Source: an uncultured Aquimonas sp.
GTDB taxonomy: Bacteria > Pseudomonadota > Gammaproteobacteria > Xanthomonadales > Xanthomonadaceae
Assembly (NCBI GenBank): GCA_946481615.1
Contig: CAMLOR010000051.1
Location: 1 to 18,085 of the forward strand
Length of the DNA: 18,085 nucleotides
Direction of reading: 5' to 3'
Below, piece after piece: positions 6,403-16,849 of this stretch. The position numbers were made by a program, and so were the translations under genes. How positions within the stretch are numbered: position 1 is the first letter of the stretch; each line of letters begins with the position of its first letter. Under the pieces are notes generated by a model, which had not been told where the DNA came from, ran no database searches, and saw only the letters and a list, made by a program, of their open reading frames with translations.

Positions 6403-6564
6403 CGTTGCGGGCGGCGCGTTGCCGCGTGCGCGCGCGAGCGCGCGTACGTTCCCGTGGTGCCGCAGGTCGCGGTATCGAGGGAGCATGGAATGCGCGCGCG
6501 TCTTGACCCCGCCCCGTCGTGGCGGCAGGCTTCGGCAAAAGCAGGGAAGAACAACCGCCGCGAG

Positions 6565-7584
6565 ATGATCAACCTCAGCGTCTTCCGCCATTTCGTCCCC
6601 ACGCACTCGCTCTCGCCGGCCGACCGCGCCGAACTGGCGCGCCACAGCTATCTCGCGGGCTACCAGCCGGGGCAGGTGCTGTTCCATCGCGGCGACAGCG
6701 CGAAGACGGTGGCGTATCTGGTTTCGGGCGAAGTGGAACTGGTGAGCGAACTGGGTTCGCGACTGGTCGCCGGCGACACCGAGGAATCGCGCTACGCGCT
6801 GTCCTCGGGCGAGAAGCGCGCGGTCACCGCGACTTGCACGCGGCCGGCGCAGGTGCTTTTCATCGATCGCGTGCGGCTCGACCTGATGCTGACCTGGGCC
6901 CAGACCGGTGCCGTCGACGTGCGCGACGTCGACGAGGGCGAAGCGCAGGACTGGATGAGCGCCATGCTGCGCAACGCCGCCTTCCACCGCATCCCGCCGG
7001 CCAACATCGCGCAGATCATCGCCAGCGTGGAGCAGGTGGAATTCGCCCCGGGCGAAGACATCATCCGCCAGGGCGAGGCCGGCGATTACTACTACGTGGT
7101 CACCGACGGCCTGTGCCAGGTGTTGCTGAAGGATCCCGACGGCAACGAGCGCGAGCTCGACCGCATCGGCCAGGGCCAGGGCTTCGGCGAGGAGGCCCTG
7201 GTCTCGGGCGACCCGCGCAACGCCACCGTGCGCGCCCTCACGCGCGCCTCGCTGGTGCGCCTGGCGGCGCAGGATTTCGCCCGCCTGCTGCGCGATCCGC
7301 TCATGCACCGCGCCAACCTCGATGCCATGCCGCAGGGCGCCATCCTGGTCGACGTGCGCCTGCCCGAGGAGTTCGCCCGCGGCCACCTCGCCGGTGCGGT
7401 GAGCCTGCCGCTGCGCCGCCTGCGGAGCGAAGTGCGCAGCATGGACGCCTCGCGTCCCCTGATCGTCTATTGCGACACGGGGCGCCGCAGCGCCTCGGCC
7501 ACCTTCCTGCTCACCGAGCGCGGCTTCGACGCCCGCTGGGTGGAGAAGGGAGTGCCCGAGGCCAGGCTCACATCTGTGTCATAG
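6565..7584 (+). CDS. Double cyclic-nucleotide-binding and rhodanese fusion protein
   Basis: Soluble 339-residue protein with three domains. The first cyclic-nucleotide-binding domain (about 8-110) is degenerate and lacks a recognisable phosphate-binding cassette. The second (about 135-245) keeps the cassette: FGEEAL (207-212) followed by PRNATVRA (217-224), with Glu209 and Arg218 nine residues apart as in ligand-binding CRP/PKA-type domains. The C-terminal rhodanese domain (about 255-335) has the loop CDTGRRSA with catalytic Cys303. There is no DNA-binding helix-turn-helix and no membrane segment. A cyclic nucleotide may gate sulfur transfer or persulfide handling; this is inference. Start choice is open: an upstream in-frame ATG at 6490 has a better ribosome binding site (GAGGGAG seven bases before), adding 25 poorly structured residues. 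I prefer 6565 because the fold begins there. Confidence 0.85.
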   Translation: MINLSVFRHFVPTHSLSPADRAELARHSYLAGYQPGQVLFHRGDSAKTVAYLVSGEVELVSELGSRLVAGDTEESRYALSSGEKRAVTATCTRPAQVLFIDRVRLDLMLTWAQTGAVDVRDVDEGEAQDWMSAMLRNAAFHRIPPANIAQIIASVEQVEFAPGEDIIRQGEAGDYYYVVTDGLCQVLLKDPDGNERELDRIGQGQGFGEEALVSGDPRNATVRALTRASLVRLAAQDFARLLRDPLMHRANLDAMPQGAILVDVRLPEEFARGHLAGAVSLPLRRLRSEVRSMDASRPLIVYCDTGRRSASATFLLTERGFDARWVEKGVPEARLTSVS

Positions 7585-9015: not shown

Positions 9016-9468
9016 TCAGCGCCAGCAGTCGGCGAGCGTGCCGGACGACTGGCCGCGTGCGCCGGTGTTGTCGAGCGTCAGCGTGCCGCAGGCGTCCTCG
9101 GCCTGGTCGTCCTGCGGGATGGCGACGAGGTTGTAGGTCGTGGCCGTCGGCGGGTTGTCTTCGTCGAAGCCCACCGTATAGAACGCCGAGATGTCCTGCG
9201 TGCACGCGCCCGGCGCCGCGACGGCCACCGGCACCGGCACGGCCGCCGTGGGGCGCGTCTGGTGGTACTGCAGGTTGGTCGTGTAGAAGCGCTCCATGAA
9301 CTGCGCGCCTTCCGTCAGACAGGTCTGCGCCACGGCGCGGCGCGAGTTGCGCACCGAATCGCGATAGGCCGGGATCGCGAACGCCAGCAGGACGCCGATC
9401 AGCGCCACCACCACCATGAGCTCGATCAGCGTGAAACCGCGCGCGCGTGCCAGGGATGGGCGAGTCAT
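9016..9468 (-). CDS. pilE: Type IV minor pilin PilE
   Basis: Minor pilin, 150 residues, last gene of the pilus operon. A class III prepilin leader is visible: MTRPSLARARG then FTLIELMVVVALIG, with cleavage by PilD expected after Gly11, Phe at +1 and the assembly-critical Glu at +5. After the hydrophobic helix, FAIPAYRDSVRNSRRAVAQTCL is typical of the Xanthomonadaceae PilE type. Cysteines at CTQ, ACG and DCWR could form the C-terminal disulfide loop. The ATG lies two bases after the pilY1 stop; GAGGG inside the last pilY1 codons, nine bases upstream, can serve as ribosome binding site. Minor pilins prime pilus assembly and sit at or near the tip together with PilY1. The gene is convergent with ppnN, 18 bases apart. 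Confidence 0.93.
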   Translation of the reverse strand: MTRPSLARARGFTLIELMVVVALIGVLLAFAIPAYRDSVRNSRRAVAQTCLTEGAQFMERFYTTNLQYHQTRPTAAVPVPVAVAAPGACTQDISAFYTVGFDEDNPPTATTYNLVAIPQDDQAEDACGTLTLDNTGARGQSSGTLADCWR

Positions 9469-9470
9469 GA

Positions 9471-12400
9471 TCAGTTGCCCTCGATTTCGCGCCACGAGGA
9501 ACGGCTCTCGCCGAGGGTGCCGGTGCTCGGCGGCAGCCTGATCCAGCCCAGTTCGCCCTCCGAGCCGCCCACCACGAGCACGCCGTCGATGATGGTGGGC
9601 TGGGTCGGCATGTTGATGCCGAGGTCGACCGAGCCGATCGGCAGGCCGCCGACCGAGCCGGGGATCGTGCGACCGTCGTGGATCTGGCCCGCGATCGCCG
9701 AGGCCGTGAAACTCGTGCCGTTGAAGGCATCGATGCCGTTGATGTAGCCCGAGCCGCCCGGCGAGCAGGCATCTTCCTGGTCGAAGGGCGGAATGCGCGT
9801 GGCGAAGATCAGCGCATCGTTGAGCACGAACGGCCGCGTGATCACGCGCTCGCCCGGCGTCGGCGTGTCGAAATCGATGTACCAGCCCTTGGCCGCCGCA
9901 GGCAGGGTGTTGGCGGCCTCGAAGGCGCGCACCGGGAACGAGCCCACCACGGCCACGACTTCGATGTCGCGTTCCTGCAGTTCGTTGCGGGCCACGGTCT
10001 CGTTGTTGTCGATCACCGCGTACAGGCTCTGGATCGTCTCGTCCTGGCTGTCGTCGGTGGTGAAGTAGGAACCCGAGCCGAAGAACACGAACAGCTTGCC
10101 GGTTTCCTGGTTCTTGGCCAGCGCCAGGCCGCTGGAAAGCGGTTGACCGGCCGGCGTGCTGAACATCGGCTCGCCTCCCAGGGCCAGCGCGGGCGTCGAG
10201 CCGGTGAAATCGAACTTCCAGACGTTGCCGCGGTAGTCCGCCGCGAACACTCGGTCGACCAGGCGGTCGTTGTCGTCGTCCCAGCCGCGCGGCGCGAACA
10301 GGCCGTTGTCGCCGGCCTCGCCGGTCCGGATCTTGGTGTAGGCGCCACTCGACAGGTTGATCACGAACAACACCGCCTCGCCGGAGCCGCTGTTGAGGCC
10401 GTTGCCCACGATCGCGACCGGCGTGCCGTCCTGGGTCTTGGTGATCAGCGGTTCGCCCAGCACGTTGCCGAGGTCGGCATCGACGATCTCCCACATCACG
10501 TCGTTGCCGTCGAACGAGCGCACGTCGGTGACGTCGAGCGCGAACAGCGACTTGCCGCCGCGGCCGAGCGAACCGATGAGGATGTTCTGGTTGGGCGTCT
10601 GGGCGAAGTTCGTGACCACCATGGGGCCGTCGACGAAATAGCGGTGCTCGTAGATCGGCGAACTGAGTTCGCCGAGGTCGTCGAAATCGATCTGGCTGGG
10701 CACGTAGGCCATGATTTCCACGCCGGTGTGCTCGTCGAAGGCGTGCAGCATGCCGTCGTTGGAGCCCACGTAGATGGCCTCGGTGTGCGCATCGTAGAAC
10801 GGCGAGGAATTCGCGATGTCGCCGATGGTCGAGTCGCGGCGGCGCAGGCCTTCGCTCTCGCCGCTGCGGTCGCCCGCGAGGTAGGCGGCGTTGTCGGCGC
10901 CGCTCACCGGGCCTGCCGCACGCGCGCTGCGGTCGAGCGCCGTGACCTGGGCATCGGTCGGGAAGGCGGCTCCTTCGTCCTCGTCGGTGTCCCAGGTGAA
11001 GAGGTGGCGGCTGCCGTACGCGGGCGTCGTCGCGACCCAGGTCGCCTCGTCCGCCACGCTGCCGTTCTCGACCGCGAACGCCTTCAGCGTGCCGTTCCAG
11101 CGGCCGGTGTCGTAGCTCGCCTGGAATACGTAACGCTCGTTCTGCGTCGAAGTGCTGTTGGTGGAGACGTTGGAGCCGGCGCCGGTGCGCGAATCGAGCA
11201 GCGCGAAGGCGCCGGTCAGCGCGTTCGCGAATTCCGAGGTGTTGGAGGCCACGACGAAGTCGCCGCGTCCGTTGACCGAGGCATGCAACAGGTCGTCGAT
11301 GCGCGTTGCGTTGACGGAACTCGGGCTGTCGGGGCGCGTGTCGGGCCACTCCTTCGAACCGATTTCGATCAGTCCGACGTCGGTGGCGGGATCGAGGGTG
11401 CCTTCCAGGCCGATCGACACGCCGAAGGTCACCATGTGTTGCCAGAACGCCGGATCGTCGGTCGAGCTCGGCACGGTGTTGTCGTAGTCCGGGGCGAGGT
11501 CGGTCTTCCAGTAGTGCATCGCCACGTCGGCGAGCGTGTCGGCACGGCGCGCGGCCGACAGGGCAAGATTGTCCTGGTACGGGCGCTCCACCTCGTAGAT
11601 GAAATCCGGATCGTCCGGGCCGCTGTGCGTGTCCGGGCCGGCGGTGCCGTCGGCATCGCCGACATCCGTGTAACCGCTCGTCGAATTCCAGTAGCCGTCC
11701 GTGGTGAGGATCGCGAAGTTCTGGCGGCAGGCCAGGATGTCGTCGTTGCTCGAGGTGCGGTACGGGCTGCTCGCGCTTTCGGTGTCGGAGAAGTAATTGC
11801 CGGCACGTTGCAGGGCGCGGTGCAGATAGGTGCTGCCGTCGGCGTCCTCGGCGTGGAGGCGCTCGTACCACTCCTCCTTGTTCTCGTCGCGGAACAGGCC
11901 GTCGTCGTTGTCGACCGGGATGTCGAACGGCACGCCCGTGCCGCGGTTGATGCTGTCGTAGCCGATGCGAAGATTCAGATCGAGCGAGGAGAAGGCTTCG
12001 CTGGCGCCGGCCTTCGCCACCTTCATGCGCGAACGGTGGTAGGCGTACCAGTTGGCGTAGTTCTGCTTTTCCAGCGCGACGGTGGTGCGCGACGCGTTGG
12101 GCAGCTCTTCGGCGACGGTGGTGTAGAACGTCACCGTCGCCACCACGTTGCGATAGCGCGACGAAGCCGAGATGCCCGCGCGCCACGTGCCGGAGGCCGG
12201 GAACATGACCGAGATCGTCTCGTCGTTGTCGTCGCCGGTCGAGCGGTAATCGTAGTTCGATGTCGTCGGCGCCGCGCTGTTGCGCAAATAGAGGTCGGCA
12301 CCGTCGCCGTCCTCGTTGGTGGCATTGTTGTTGTCGCCATGCGTGCCGCCGGAGAGGCTGACCACCATTTGCGCGGTGTTCGCCGGCACGGCGATGTTGG

Positions 12401-13007
12401 TCAGCGCCTGCATGCCGCTGTTGCTGTCGCGATTGTCGATCGGATAGCCCGCCGGAGGGTTGGCGTACTGCGTCTTGTAGACCTTTCCGCGCTGGGCCGA
12501 CGGCGCGTCGTTGCCGATGATCATCCAGCGCCAGTAGTCCGTCGCATTGGTGCTCGTGGTGGGCGGCGTCTTGGGCACGAAGAACGTCTGCGTCGTCGTG
12601 CGCAGGTCGTAGGCGCTGCCCAGGGTGGAGGTGTCGCGCGACGCCGAGTTGTAGTTGGCGGCCGCCAGGCGCGAGCCGCTCGCCGTCATCCACGGCAGGT
12701 AGGTCGTGGCCGGGTTGTAGTGGATCGAGTTGTGCACGTGGCTGGCGTCGGTGACGCGCAGCGGATCGAGGGCGCGTGTGGCGCCGTTGCCCGAGGTGTC
12801 GGTCGGATCCTCGAGCTCCGCGGGCATCGCGATCAGATTCATCGAGCCCGAATCGTCGAGGATGAAACGCACGTTCGGCGGCGGGTACAGCACGCCGGAT
12901 TCGAGCGGCACGGAAGGAAAGTTCACCGCCTGGGCGGTGCCGCCCGCGCAGGTGGCCAGGCACGCCAGCATCAGCGTGGAGAGGCGGGTCGATCGCGTGG
13001 TTTTCAT
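9471..13007 (-). CDS. pilY1: PilY1 pilus tip protein with a predicted inserted PPC domain
   Basis: Secreted type IV pilus tip/adhesin and mechanosensing protein, 1178 residues. A signal peptide ends about residue 27 (GTAQA). The N-terminal von Willebrand A-like region has the metal-site motif DDSGSM (51-56) and the later TDGYWN (436-441). Within it, at about 203-297, is a stretch that looks like a bacterial pre-peptidase C-terminal domain (ADLYLRNSAAPTTS, then YDYRS, and FPASGTWRAGIS). The typical PilY1 sequence resumes at KQNYANWYAYHRSRM. The C-terminal beta-propeller (about 725-1165) contains AIYVGSNDGMLHAF and an EF-hand-like calcium loop with Asp910, 912, 914 and 918, followed by VFAADYRGNVWKFD. 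In Pseudomonas calcium binding by this loop controls pilus extension and retraction. The start follows GAGGGG; the gene begins 14 bases after pilX. Confidence 0.95.
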   Translation of the reverse strand: MKTTRSTRLSTLMLACLATCAGGTAQAVNFPSVPLESGVLYPPPNVRFILDDSGSMNLIAMPAELEDPTDTSGNGATRALDPLRVTDASHVHNSIHYNPATTYLPWMTASGSRLAAANYNSASRDTSTLGSAYDLRTTTQTFFVPKTPPTTSTNATDYWRWMIIGNDAPSAQRGKVYKTQYANPPAGYPIDNRDSNSGMQALTNIAVPANTAQMVVSLSGGTHGDNNNATNEDGDGADLYLRNSAAPTTSNYDYRSTGDDNDETISVMFPASGTWRAGISASSRYRNVVATVTFYTTVAEELPNASRTTVALEKQNYANWYAYHRSRMKVAKAGASEAFSSLDLNLRIGYDSINRGTGVPFDIPVDNDDGLFRDENKEEWYERLHAEDADGSTYLHRALQRAGNYFSDTESASSPYRTSSNDDILACRQNFAILTTDGYWNSTSGYTDVGDADGTAGPDTHSGPDDPDFIYEVERPYQDNLALSAARRADTLADVAMHYWKTDLAPDYDNTVPSSTDDPAFWQHMVTFGVSIGLEGTLDPATDVGLIEIGSKEWPDTRPDSPSSVNATRIDDLLHASVNGRGDFVVASNTSEFANALTGAFALLDSRTGAGSNVSTNSTSTQNERYVFQASYDTGRWNGTLKAFAVENGSVADEATWVATTPAYGSRHLFTWDTDEDEGAAFPTDAQVTALDRSARAAGPVSGADNAAYLAGDRSGESEGLRRRDSTIGDIANSSPFYDAHTEAIYVGSNDGMLHAFDEHTGVEIMAYVPSQIDFDDLGELSSPIYEHRYFVDGPMVVTNFAQTPNQNILIGSLGRGGKSLFALDVTDVRSFDGNDVMWEIVDADLGNVLGEPLITKTQDGTPVAIVGNGLNSGSGEAVLFVINLSSGAYTKIRTGEAGDNGLFAPRGWDDDNDRLVDRVFAADYRGNVWKFDFTGSTPALALGGEPMFSTPAGQPLSSGLALAKNQETGKLFVFFGSGSYFTTDDSQDETIQSLYAVIDNNETVARNELQERDIEVVAVVGSFPVRAFEAANTLPAAAKGWYIDFDTPTPGERVITRPFVLNDALIFATRIPPFDQEDACSPGGSGYINGIDAFNGTSFTASAIAGQIHDGRTIPGSVGGLPIGSVDLGINMPTQPTIIDGVLVVGGSEGELGWIRLPPSTGTLGESRSSWREIEGN

Positions 13008-13021
13008 GATGTCCCCTCAGC

Positions 13022-13573
13022 TCATTCCGCGGCCAGGATCGACTGCAGCACCACGACGGCGCGGCCGTCGCCGTCGGTTTCCGACTGGCTGCGCGCGGTG
13101 ATGCGGAAGCGGCGTTGCGTGCCCGTGACGTCGCACTCCACCCCGCTGACGTCGCCGCTGGTGCTGCAATCCCCGCTGCTGCCGGTGCCCGGCACGTCGG
13201 TGGCGATCAGCTCCACGATGTAGCGCGGCGGATCGACCAGGCCTTCGAATTCGGTCTGCGCCTCCGGGGCGTTGGCCCACACGGTGGCGCTCTCCCACAC
13301 GGGCGCGGCGGAAGGGTCGGGAATGCCGCACACGCCGCTGGTGCAACCGGACGCCGGGAACGCGACCGCGGTGGCGCGCCGCTCGCCTTCGCGCAGCGCC
13401 GCCTCCGCCGCCTGGAACGCCAGGCTGCGGTCGAGCATGCCGGCGCTCATGCGTTCCTCGAGCACCGTCGCGCGGACGCTGACGATGCCGAGCAGGGTCA
13501 TCACCAGCAACAGGACCAGCACCGTGACGAGGGCCGCGCCTTGCTGGCGGCGGGGTGGGCGTATTGGCTTCAT
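13022..13573 (-). CDS. pilX: Type IV pilus minor pilin PilX
   Basis: Minor pilin of 183 residues. The prepilin leader is MKPIRPPRRQQG (12 residues) followed by AALVTVLVLLLVMTLLGIVSV. The +5 position after the expected cleavage is Thr, not Glu; this is seen in PilX/GspK-type pilins that cap the tip complex. The sequence TVLEERMSAGMLDRSLAFQAAEAALREGE is the PilX N-terminal family hallmark. Two cysteine pairs (GCTSGVCG and DCSTSGDVSGVECD) may form disulfides in the C-terminal part. The ATG overlaps the pilW stop by four bases (ATGA), with GAGGA seven bases upstream as ribosome binding site, so the gene is translationally coupled in the operon. Confidence 0.92.
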   Translation of the reverse strand: MKPIRPPRRQQGAALVTVLVLLLVMTLLGIVSVRATVLEERMSAGMLDRSLAFQAAEAALREGERRATAVAFPASGCTSGVCGIPDPSAAPVWESATVWANAPEAQTEFEGLVDPPRYIVELIATDVPGTGSSGDCSTSGDVSGVECDVTGTQRRFRITARSQSETDGDGRAVVVLQSILAAE

Positions 13574-14649
13574 GTCCGGTTCCTCAGAGCGATGGTGTGT
13601 TGCATCCACCGGGTCAGGGGTGCGCCGTCGGTGCCGACCGCTACCGTGCCGGTCAGTGTCAGCCGCACGCGGACGGCACTGACGTTGCTCCAGTTGGTGA
13701 CGACACTGGCGTCCACGTACGTGGCGGTGTTGCCGCTGCCGACGAGATAGCGCAACTGCAGATCCTGCACGTTCTCCGCGATCTCGATCGGATCGGCGGT
13801 GAGCGAGCCATCGACGTTGCGCAGCGCGGCGCGATACAGCGAACGCCCGCCGCGACCGTTGTTGCCGACATACCAGCGCGCCGCTTCCAGGCGGGCGATG
13901 GTGCCCGGCCACGGGCGCGGATCGACGCAGGTGCCGTTGTTGCGGCGCGCGCCGTTGAAGCAGCCGAAACTGTAGGTGCGCGCGCCGCCGCCGCCCGGGA
14001 CGTTGGGGCAGTTGCCATCCAGCGACAGGCAGGTGGTTGCGTTGCCGGGCGTCTGCGCGCCGGTGTTGTGGACGATGTTGTTGTTGGTGCCGGACTGCGC
14101 GTTGGTGACCTGGAAGATGGCCGCATGGTCGAAATCGCAGACCATCGCGATGTCGCCGTCCTGCAGGCCATGGTCGACCTTGTTAACCGAGAAGCGCGCC
14201 GACGCCGATTGATGATCGGCCACGGTCACGCCGTTGGAATGCGCCGAGTGCAGCTCGATCGCGTCGGTGCCGCTGAGGCGTTGGCCGGCTCCGGTGCCGA
14301 ACGGCAGGCCGGCCGCGGCCGTGGTGGCCTCGTAGCCCGAGAGCGGCGTGGTCCACATGCTCCACCACGCGGTGGCCGGGCTGTTCAGCACGTTGACGAT
14401 CGGAGCGTCGAGGTCGCAGGGCATGCCGCCGGCCTCGCGCACGTCGCGCGCCATCACCTCGAAGGCGATGCGCGCGGTTTCCTGGATGCGCCCCAGGCTC
14501 TCGGTGGCGGCGTAGGTCTGCCGGTTGGAAATGAAGACGGTGAGCGCGGCGCCCACCACCATCAGGCCCAGGATCAGCGAAACCATCAATTCGACGAGGC
14601 TCACGCCCGCCATGCGGCGGGGCGGCGCGAAGCCGGAACGGCGGCTCAT
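13570..14649 (-). CDS. pilW: Type IV pilus minor pilin PilW
   Basis: Large minor pilin of 359 residues. The leader of 15 residues ends in RRMAG, followed by VSLVELMVSLILGLMVVGAAL: Val rather than the usual Phe at +1, and the conserved Glu at +5. NRQTYAATESLGRIQETARIAFEVMARDVREAGG is the standard PilW continuation. The C-terminal part contains a WYVG segment, LYRAAL and the ENVQDLQLRYLVG block found in PilW proteins. A glycine- and asparagine-rich middle region (about residues 180-250, four or more Cys) may be a surface loop. Start and stop overlap pilV and pilX respectively by four bases each; GAGGA lies seven bases before the ATG. Confidence 0.93.
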   Translation of the reverse strand: MSRRSGFAPPRRMAGVSLVELMVSLILGLMVVGAALTVFISNRQTYAATESLGRIQETARIAFEVMARDVREAGGMPCDLDAPIVNVLNSPATAWWSMWTTPLSGYEATTAAAGLPFGTGAGQRLSGTDAIELHSAHSNGVTVADHQSASARFSVNKVDHGLQDGDIAMVCDFDHAAIFQVTNAQSGTNNNIVHNTGAQTPGNATTCLSLDGNCPNVPGGGGARTYSFGCFNGARRNNGTCVDPRPWPGTIARLEAARWYVGNNGRGGRSLYRAALRNVDGSLTADPIEIAENVQDLQLRYLVGSGNTATYVDASVVTNWSNVSAVRVRLTLTGTVAVGTDGAPLTRWMQHTIALRNRT

Positions 14650-15089
14650 AGCGCGGTCCTCGTTTGCACGGTGTAGGTCTGCAGCGCGAGGTCGTCGCCG
14701 CTGCCGCGCGAATCGTCCCAGCGCACCTCGATCAGGCAGGCTTCGCCGTCGCAGTCGACACGGCCGCAGGCCGTGCTGTTGATGTTTTCCTTGAGCGACA
14801 GGACCCAGTCGCGCAGATCGTCGCGTGCGCCGCTGGCCCCCGCCACCGGCGGTTCGCACATGAAGCCGGTGACGTTGTAATCGCCCACCAGCGCGCCGCC
14901 GCGGGCGCGCATGGAGTCGAGGATCGAATAACTTTCCATCACGGCCTGCGTGCGTTCGAACGCACTCTGGCTGTTGCGCAGGGACACGGCCTGCATGGCG
15001 GCGATGCCGAGCATGCCCAGTGCCAGTACCAGTACGGCGACCAGCACTTCGATCATGCTGAAGCCGCGGTGTTTCGATGGAGCGTGCAT
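14646..15089 (-). CDS. pilV: Type IV pilus modification/minor pilin PilV
   Basis: Minor pilin of 147 residues. The leader MHAPSKHRG is followed by FSMIEVLVAVLVLALGMLGIAAMQ, with Glu at +5 and the LALGMLGIAAMQ segment typical of PilV. The C-terminal region contains several cysteines (FMCEPP, TACGRVDCDGEACL) and the EVRWDD block seen near the end of PilV proteins. I chose the ATG at 15089 because GAGG lies six bases upstream and it gives a nine-residue leader. An in-frame ATG at 15101 overlaps the fimT stop (ATGA) and would give a 13-residue leader; both are acceptable prepilins. The stop overlaps the pilW start by four bases. Confidence 0.9.
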   Translation of the reverse strand: MHAPSKHRGFSMIEVLVAVLVLALGMLGIAAMQAVSLRNSQSAFERTQAVMESYSILDSMRARGGALVGDYNVTGFMCEPPVAGASGARDDLRDWVLSLKENINSTACGRVDCDGEACLIEVRWDDSRGSGDDLALQTYTVQTRTAL

Positions 15090-15097
15090 ATCGCGCC

Positions 15098-15697
15098 TCA
15101 TGGGTTGCCCGGTGCGCCGCATTCGCCGTTGCTGTCGACGCGCGACACCGCCACGCGGCCGCCGACGGCAAGGCTGACGTCGCGCGAATTTTCCGGGGGA
15201 TTCATCGTCGGGATGCAGGCGCGCAGATTGCCCGCCATCAGATCGTCGCGATCCTTGTTGTAGGCGAAACCGTCGTGGCGGAACACGATGCGGCTGTCAT
15301 CGCTGACGTTGCCGCTGGCCCACAGCTCCGTGGGCCCGGTGAGCAGGTGCGAGCGCAGGATGCGTTCGCCGGTGTTCAGATCACCGTTGCCGTTGCTGTC
15401 TTCGAAGGAAATGAATCCGCGCCAGCGCGCGCCCGTGGTGCAGGTGCTGCCGTCGTCGCTCGGGCACACCACGGTGCGCACGCCGCGGCGCACGGCTTCG
15501 ATGCGCGCGGCCTGCAGCGTGGCGGTGAGTTCGTTGCTGGCGCTCGCCAGGCGATTGTTGTTGATGACCGCCGTGAACCCGGGCACGGCGGCCGCGGCGA
15601 GGATGGCGAGGATGGCGAGCACCGTCATCAGCTCGACGATCGAAAAGCCCAGAGGCCGACGCGCGCCCCGGCGCATGCCTGTGACAGTTGTTTTCAT
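15098..15697 (-). CDS. GspH/FimT-family minor pilin (FimU/FimT-like), first gene of the pilus operon
   Basis: Minor pilin of 199 residues. The leader of 17 residues ends in RRPLG, followed by FSIVELMTVLAILAILAAAAVPGF, with Glu at +5. The C-terminal GspH-type beta domain shows NELTATLQAARIEAVRRGVRTVVCPSDD and FISFEDSNGNGDLNTGERIL. By position, as first gene before pilV-W-X-Y1-E, it corresponds to Pseudomonas FimU. DNA-binding FimT proteins carry a GRxR motif near the C-terminus; here the equivalent place reads GGRVAVSR, so that motif is incomplete and a FimU role is more likely than DNA uptake, though not settled. The ATG at 15697 has AGGGG nine bases upstream; an internal ATG at 15676 would leave a 10-residue leader. 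A Clp-type palindrome lies 63-78 bases before the start. Confidence 0.9.
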   Translation of the reverse strand: MKTTVTGMRRGARRPLGFSIVELMTVLAILAILAAAAVPGFTAVINNNRLASASNELTATLQAARIEAVRRGVRTVVCPSDDGSTCTTGARWRGFISFEDSNGNGDLNTGERILRSHLLTGPTELWASGNVSDDSRIVFRHDGFAYNKDRDDLMAGNLRACIPTMNPPENSRDVSLAVGGRVAVSRVDSNGECGAPGNP

Positions 15698-15835: not shown

Positions 15836-16849
15836 ATGAGCGATCTGGCCCGCCCCCTCGACGCGATGTGGCAGCCGCGCGCCCTGGTCTGGGCGATCGT
15901 GCTGGTGCTGGGGCTGGCCGTGGTATTGGCGCTGGCGCCCGGCAGTGCGCCCGCCCGCCTCGGCGTGCTGATAGAGCGCTTCGGGCTTTACGCCTTCCTC
16001 GGCGCCTGGATCGTGCTGCTCGCCCTGGGCGGGCTGTATGCGCTGCGCAATCACGTCATGCACCTCTCCGCGGCGGCGATCGCCTGGATCGCCGTGGGGC
16101 TGTTGATGGTGTCGACCCTGGTCGTGTGCGGCGCCAGTTTTCTCGTGATCGGGCAGCTCAGTGATGTGAATCTGATCACAGTACTGCTGCGCACTGCCGG
16201 CATTTCGCTGACCATGGGGCTGCTCGCGATGGGCGCCTTCCGCACGGTCTGGGGCAACATCCAGCTGCGCGCGGCGGCGCGCCAGGCGGAGCTGCAGGCG
16301 CTGCAGGCGCGCGTGCATCCGCACTTCCTGTTCAACACCCTCAACACGGCGGTGACCCTGGTGCGGCAGCAGCCTGCGCAGGCCGAGATGTTGCTGCACG
16401 ATCTTTCCGATCTGTTCCGCGCCGCGCTGTCGTCGCAGCGCGACATCCCGCTCTCGCAGGAGCTGCATCTGTGCGAGCGTTACCTGGAGATCGAGAAACT
16501 GCGCTTGGGCTCGCGCCTGTCGGTGCGCTGGGCGCGCCCGGAGCAGTTGCCCGATCCGGTGGTGCCGGCGTTGCTGATCCAGCCGCTGGTCGAAAATGCC
16601 GTGCGACACGGCATCGAATCGCAGCCGGTGGGCGGCGAGGTGGGCATCGAGGTCGAATTCACGGAACGCCTGCTGACGATCCGGGTGAGCAATCCGTTGC
16701 CCGCCACGCCGCCGCGCCGCGACGGCCACCACATCGGGCAGAGCGCGGTGCGCGGCCGCATCGCGCTGGCCACGCAGGAGCGGGGAAAACTCGCGACGAA
16801 GGTGGACGGTGGCCGCTACGTGGCCACCGTCACCCTGCCGCTGGTCTGA
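15836..16849 (+). CDS. LytS/AlgZ(FimS)-type membrane sensor histidine kinase
   Basis: Inner membrane sensor kinase of 337 residues. Four hydrophobic segments (about 17-34, 49-69, 80-105 and 113-137) form the membrane part, followed by a short helix and the His_kinase domain of the LytS family: ARVHPHFLFNTLNTAV with phospho-acceptor His163, LSDLFRAAL, ELHLCERYLEIEKLRLG, and the N-box ALLIQPLVENAVRHGIE (246-261). The ATP lid is minimal (SNPLPATPP then GHHIGQSAVRGRI), as in AlgZ/FimS proteins. Partners are normally LytTR-domain regulators such as AlgR, which in Pseudomonas activates the fimU-pilVWXY1E operon. No such regulator gene follows here. The ribosome binding site is weak. A second perfect CRP/Clp palindrome lies within the fourth membrane region of the gene. 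The stop abuts the stop of the convergent DUF885 gene. Confidence 0.9.
   Translation: MSDLARPLDAMWQPRALVWAIVLVLGLAVVLALAPGSAPARLGVLIERFGLYAFLGAWIVLLALGGLYALRNHVMHLSAAAIAWIAVGLLMVSTLVVCGASFLVIGQLSDVNLITVLLRTAGISLTMGLLAMGAFRTVWGNIQLRAAARQAELQALQARVHPHFLFNTLNTAVTLVRQQPAQAEMLLHDLSDLFRAALSSQRDIPLSQELHLCERYLEIEKLRLGSRLSVRWARPEQLPDPVVPALLIQPLVENAVRHGIESQPVGGEVGIEVEFTERLLTIRVSNPLPATPPRRDGHHIGQSAVRGRIALATQERGKLATKVDGGRYVATVTLPLV
16165..16180. promoter_or_regulatory. CRP/Clp operator, perfect consensus, inside the kinase gene
   Basis: TGTGAATCTGATCACA is a second exact TGTGA-N6-TCACA match, 405 bases from the intergenic one. It covers codons for DVNLIT. The codons around it (AGT GAT GTG AAT CTG ATC ACA GTA) contain an unusual run of A/T-ending choices for this GC-rich genome. 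Whether it is occupied by Clp is unknown. Confidence 0.65.

Follow-up and report, generated by a model that had tools for sequence, protein, structure and literature searches.

We analyzed an 18,085-nucleotide stretch of DNA from an uncultured Aquimonas sp. (contig CAMLOR010000051.1, the window from here on), which carries on its reverse strand pilY1, a gene for a type IV pilus tip adhesin of 1178 amino acids (9471-13007), with a bacterial pre-peptidase C-terminal (PPC) domain inserted in its N-terminal region. The open reading frame (ORF) was assigned to PilY1 by the PF05567 propeller profile (106 bits, cut-off 28.1) and by its nearest solved structure by sequence, PilY1 of P. aeruginosa (PDB 3hx6, E 1.5e-41). 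This structure comprises the C-terminal part only. The propeller, of the same family in both proteins, is found here at residues 733-1113 (9669-10811). The NCBIfam equivalog of Neisseria PilC scored 87.9, below its cut-off of 350. Towards the N-terminus the protein has the von Willebrand factor A (VWA)/integrin I fold with a DxSxS motif. The motif, DDSGSM at residues 51-56 (12840-12857), comes after the first VWA strand (model residues 19-24) and we take it to be the metal-ion-dependent adhesion site (MIDAS). It is followed by a segment that could be aligned with insert-free relatives (residues 57-180, 12468-12839), by the PPC insert (residues 181-297, 12117-12467) and by the first VWA helix (residues 310-323, 12039-12080), with which the rest of the VWA fold begins (residues 310-609, 11181-12080). 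All these features are on the reverse strand.

The PPC domain is real. An earlier note, made from the letters of the window, had proposed it in the N-terminal region of PilY1 and suggested a PF04151 search, which gave a significant match, with 36.8 bits over residues 205-280 of the whole protein (curated cut-off 25.9, E 7e-9) and E 5e-11 when residues 203-297 (95 residues) were searched alone. The motifs quoted in that note are all present in the translation. Searching the PDB sequences with residues 183-309 (phmmer) found the PPC domain of a Vibrio metalloprotease (2luw, E 7e-6). The predicted structure of the segment is a separate beta-sandwich (predicted local distance difference test, pLDDT, 86.5), as had been anticipated, and its closest folds are PPC domains of subtilases, Vibrio metalloprotease and clostridial collagenase. 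In the model the sandwich is nested inside the VWA fold, which it enters after the MIDAS strand, and PilY1 sequence resumes straight after it at the helix of residues 310-323; both points agree with the placement first proposed. The limits did not hold so well. The coordinates first given, 12117-12401 (residues 203-297), cut off the first strands of the domain: solved PPC domains align with model residues 9-124, which correspond to residues 181-296 (12120-12467).

The profile and the fold are the same as in the PPC domains of secreted proteases, for example vEP (2luw), Tk-SP (3afg) and the collagen-binding domain of ColG (1nqj). A C-terminal place in a secreted protease is the usual context of the domain and not a part of the PF04151 profile. 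In PilY1 it is instead internal (residues 181-297), nested in the VWA fold of a pilus adhesin. PPC domains of proteases are often removed, and this would favor a cleaved or processed PPC here too. However, the VWA fold resumes after the domain, and because the PPC lies inside that fold cutting would sever the adhesin. We regard cleavage as very improbable, and the processed-off role of protease PPC domains does not fit because the PPC of PilY1 is internal. Another difference is a 14-residue loop rich in Asn, Asp and Gly at residues 222-235 (THGDNNNATNEDGD, 12303-12344, reverse strand). A loop of at least eight residues was found at this place in 31 of 80 PilY1 PPC domains (14-15 residues in 28 of them) and in none of 51 PPC domains from other proteins; a role in calcium binding would be a guess. 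The core common to the related domains reads GGxGDADLYVR, PTTSxYDCR and GNxESC. The usual Cys pair, present in 62/80 PilY1 PPC domains and 41/51 others, is absent from the copy in the window (YDYR, ETI). No second PPC copy was detected among the 16 direct-repeat families of at least 24 bases in the window. A recent import of the domain into the window was considered and dropped, there being no anomaly in G+C content (GC) or in GC at third codon positions (GC3).

What the earlier note overlooked is that the PPC domain is not peculiar to one protein but occupies a variable slot in the PilY1 of many Lysobacteraceae. An insert was found at this site in 67 of the 120 relatives listed by the whole-protein search (query included): 56 had a PF04151 match and a long loop, ten a long loop with no Pfam hit, and one (P0117) was a shortened row with PPC. 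The remaining 53 had a short loop and no hit, so that, as had been supposed, the segment is not an integral part of the VWA fold of all PilY1 proteins. Across 232 proteins the loop lengths were bimodal. The named holders of the insert include Lysobacter, Luteimonas, Cognatiluteimonas, Noviluteimonas, Arenimonas and Pseudoxanthomonas. A few relatives are already named "pre-peptidase C-terminal domain-containing protein" in the source, and therefore the domain is visible to automatic annotation. Of 45 loci classed by record title as outside the family, 42 were measurable and the PPC profile matched none of them (L061, L063 and L066 could not be measured). One locus with the insert, L013, bears only the title Proteobacteria and was counted within Lysobacteraceae because the tree places it there. 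Duplicates (L098, L103) were removed before the loci were scored with the profile and fragments (L061, L063, L025, L042, L052, L020) before the loop-length comparison; L066 had no usable ORF. In a class-level sample of 369 genomes, with at most 13 candidates scored per genome, the profile of PilY1 PPC domains matched in 30. None of five profile-matched long ORFs, one in each of five genomes, had a PilY1 propeller, that of L228 being cut by the contig end.

A second kind of insert, of similar size and at the same site of PilY1, was seen in L003, L124, L178, L185, L186, L189, L194 and L195. When PF04151 was run on these eight together with L196 and P0085, L189 was above the cut-off (26.7, cut-off 25.9) and L186 (20.0) and L124 (19.3) were below; in the other seven there was no PPC hit, and no weak hit to an unrelated family reached its cut-off. 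Comparing profile with profile gave a weak match between the divergent group and PPC (probability 70 and 84 over 30-39 columns). Judging from these sequences, the second kind are probably divergent PPC domains. Among the 120 listed relatives, the ten with a long loop and no Pfam hit all matched a profile built from the other inserts with their flanks, and 9/10 one built from the core only. Of the 74 long loops in a second protein set, 55 had the PPC profile. Two metagenome-assembled genomes, of a Comamonadaceae (L054) and a Zoogloeaceae (L059), have long loops with other content at the same site; in L054 part of the neighboring segment seems to be repeated in the loop.

Presence of the insert is clustered on the tree of PilY1, yet it changes often. 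On a FastTree of residues 315-1178 (176 of 213 rows used, 88 with and 88 without the insert) it required 15 changes, of which starred branches force at least 12; shuffled labels required 59. The sisters P0031/P0070 and P0095/P0120 differ by presence. Within one genus we built a propeller tree from 23 of 25 genomes (two had fragments only) and three outside rows, which did not group together on one side. Eight changes were needed on it for the four types (PPC, divergent, none and other), and the PPC label alone was no more clustered than shuffled (222/500). PPC and divergent types alternate between the sister groups L124/L180+L181, L178/L179 and L186/L182+L183.

To a good extent, the content of the slot also varies independently of the remaining protein. 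Among 88 PPC-bearing proteins (of 95 rows, after dereplication), pairwise PPC identity did not follow that of the propeller (rho 0.02), whereas other blocks of the protein gave 0.26-0.78. In 36 close pairs the identity of PPC was 0.27 below that of the propeller and other blocks fell by 0.07 or less, apart from the 25 residues next to the insert (0.20, 12 pairs). A separate listing of pairs, with nine duplicate or near-duplicate rows taken out, was confined to the 48 whose propeller identity exceeds 0.84. A second set of 49 proteins came from a different query and had two members in common with the first; it gave a rho of 0.17 against 0.44-0.80 for other blocks and a drop in PPC identity of 0.28 against at most 0.12. 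The clearest mosaic is P0061/P0078, with propellers 99% identical, PPC domains 28% identical and near identity before and after the insert. Here the breakpoints are sharp at the protein level; the genome pairs were too divergent at synonymous sites to resolve breakpoints in DNA. The insert of P0078 is 86% identical to that of P0044, whose body is more distant. In P0051/P0085 the change spans the stretch from the MIDAS to the helix (59% identity over residues 57-157, 34% in the PPC), between flanking parts 92-94% identical. The PPC of the window has near counterparts in P0121 and P0122 (53-54% identical), whose bodies are distant; a search with the PPC brought up these two, which are missing from the 120 relatives of the whole-protein search. 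Content discordant with the gene body, as in an exchanged cassette, was thus observed, weakly in the genome rows alone.

Our reading, to which we give a probability of about 0.6, is that the PPC domain serves the pilus tip as a ligand-binding head that can be exchanged, the content of the slot changing by loss and replacement between lineages. Several results weigh against it. When only the 22 rows of the first set that derive from genomes were taken, the discordance was mild, with a rho of 0.47 that lies within the 0.43-0.74 of other blocks. Nearest neighbors by PPC and by propeller agreed in 39/88 cases, and other blocks did hardly better (43-57/88). P0006, whose propeller is 54% identical to that of the window, reaches 50% identity in the PPC region, not far from the values of P0121 and P0122. 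Taken all together, the labels on the genus tree were somewhat clustered (eight changes, shuffled mean 10.0, as low in 12/200), and the composition of the PPC in the window is ordinary (GC 0.650, GC3 0.898). The PPC domains of L180 and L181, the two genomes closest to each other, were 93% identical with a raised pN/pS (nonsynonymous to synonymous difference ratio) of 0.12, against 0.03-0.05, at similar pS, and this points to fast point change and not to exchange. It also counts against the reading that a ligand-binding role of PPC in PilY1 would be taken by analogy. Finally, the sharpest mosaics occur in proteins that probably come from metagenomes; these mosaics could have arisen as chimeras during assembly and inflate a modest variability. 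P0061, P0078, P0096, P0097, P0051 and P0085 are sourced only from jgi or lgn, and the weaker discordance in genome rows points the same way. However, changes of presence and type occur among genome assemblies too, two junctions in one gene, as in P0061/P0078, would be harder to misassemble, and P0008, of the less sharp pair P0008/P0010, represents 13 sequences on six contigs. Chimeras are in our opinion an improbable source of the mosaics.

The origin of the domain bears on a simpler alternative. The PilY1 PPC domains stand mostly apart from other PPC domains of related genomes, with 74/80 in one clade (approximate likelihood-ratio test 91), and a single origin of all 80 was not rejected (approximately unbiased test, p-AU 0.94), the constrained tree being even likelier. 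A single ancient capture of a protease-type PPC that was later lost in places and exchanged therefore fits; several captures are possible. An independent recent gain in P0031, whose PPC falls among protease PPC domains, was dropped given the p-AU of 0.94 and the PilY1 PPC of L179 being about as near. The same single origin, together with the raised pN/pS of L180/L181 at similar pS and the rho of 0.47 in genome rows, would also suit an ordinary PPC that was vertically inherited, lost many times and diverged quickly by point changes with no exchange. We consider this unlikely. The change is abrupt between near-identical parts in P0061/P0078 and between parts 92-94% identical in P0051/P0085, the PPC of P0078 resembles that of a more distant body, and PPC and divergent types alternate between sister groups.

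There is precedent for a variable insert in the VWA domain of a PilY1 protein. The finger of A. baumannii ComC, a PilY1 orthologue, is an insert in the VWA domain that varies between lineages, like the PPC slot; the PPC is read as a tool head because of this analogy. In the part of that work available, comC lacking the VWA finger restored neither adhesion to human umbilical vein endothelial cells nor twitching, transformation was about a tenth, and the authors speak of an interchangeable tool system (PMC10374093). The finger, as described there, is an antiparallel beta protrusion with two variants and is not termed PPC, whereas the Lysobacteraceae slot has several contents family-wide. Myxococcus PilY1.1/1.2 have another N-terminal module, DUF4114, suggested to bind exopolysaccharide, and the available text of a PilY1 domain survey from 2026 gives VWA and DUF4114 and reports no further N-terminal domain (PMC13190605). 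To these modules a substrate-binding fold of proteases can now be added. No publication linking PilY1 with "pre-peptidase C-terminal" or PPC, nor any on variation or mosaicism of a PilY1 PPC, was found among the papers listed in searches outside which most subscription papers lie. Variable inserts in the VWA of PilY1 were already known; what appears to be new, as far as the literature searched goes, is that the slot holds a PPC and that this content turns over across the family.

If the exchangeable-head reading is right, the VWA and the propeller would hold the PPC on the pilus and bear force, and the module, presumably at the extreme tip, would set or tune the target, which may be a polymer, a matrix protein or the surface of prey or a neighbor. 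The slot of Lysobacteraceae would be empty, filled by PPC or filled by a more divergent domain, with replacement probably by recombination in the conserved flanks and perhaps selection for new targets. More tentatively, the PilY1 of this family could be a plug-in adhesin, with a standing pool of PPC-type heads swapped at the VWA slot so that the target shifts between close relatives and the pilus stays constant, much as receptor-binding domains are swapped in phage tail fibers. DNA for such an exchange might be taken up by these very pili; pilE matches a DNA-uptake pilin family. The insert might also have no ligand of its own and serve as a structural spacer, shaping or shielding the face of the MIDAS or stabilizing the tip. 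It is nested and not terminal, 53 of the 120 listed proteins do without it, and its content varies as that of a weakly constrained spacer would. We find this doubtful, given that insert sizes are rather uniform and that the fold kept is one that binds substrate in other secreted proteins: in the sections of both reports available, PPC-bearing segments of the G. hollisae and V. harveyi collagenases bind collagen (PMC6168687, PMC8799719), the former with no need of calcium (PMC6168687). Recognition at the type IV pilus tip is an open question in most bacteria, and a defined, separable PilY1 domain that comes and goes among closely related bacteria gives natural pairs, with, without or with different versions of it, for tests of tip specificity.

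The surroundings of pilY1 are the usual minor-pilin operon of a PilY1/PilC tip adhesin. Upstream and on the same strand are a fimU-like gene (15098-15697, start approximate; GspH and N_methyl), a pilV-like gene (14646-15122, by N_methyl only and position), pilW (13570-14658, start approximate; PF16074) and pilX (13022-13561; PF14341 and PF13681), and downstream, also on the reverse strand, a pilE/comP-like minor pilin gene (9016-9459) with matches to N_methyl and PF16732 (73 bits). The latter family, ComP_DUS, is that of the DNA-uptake-sequence receptor pilin. In P. aeruginosa, FimS/AlgR controls an operon of the fimU-pilE type. A PF06580 histidine kinase (86.9 bits, 15836-16849, forward strand) adjoins the operon in divergent orientation. 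A protein encoded at 6454-7584 (forward strand) had CRP-like nucleotide-binding and C-terminal rhodanese-like matches, all below the NCBIfam cut-offs.
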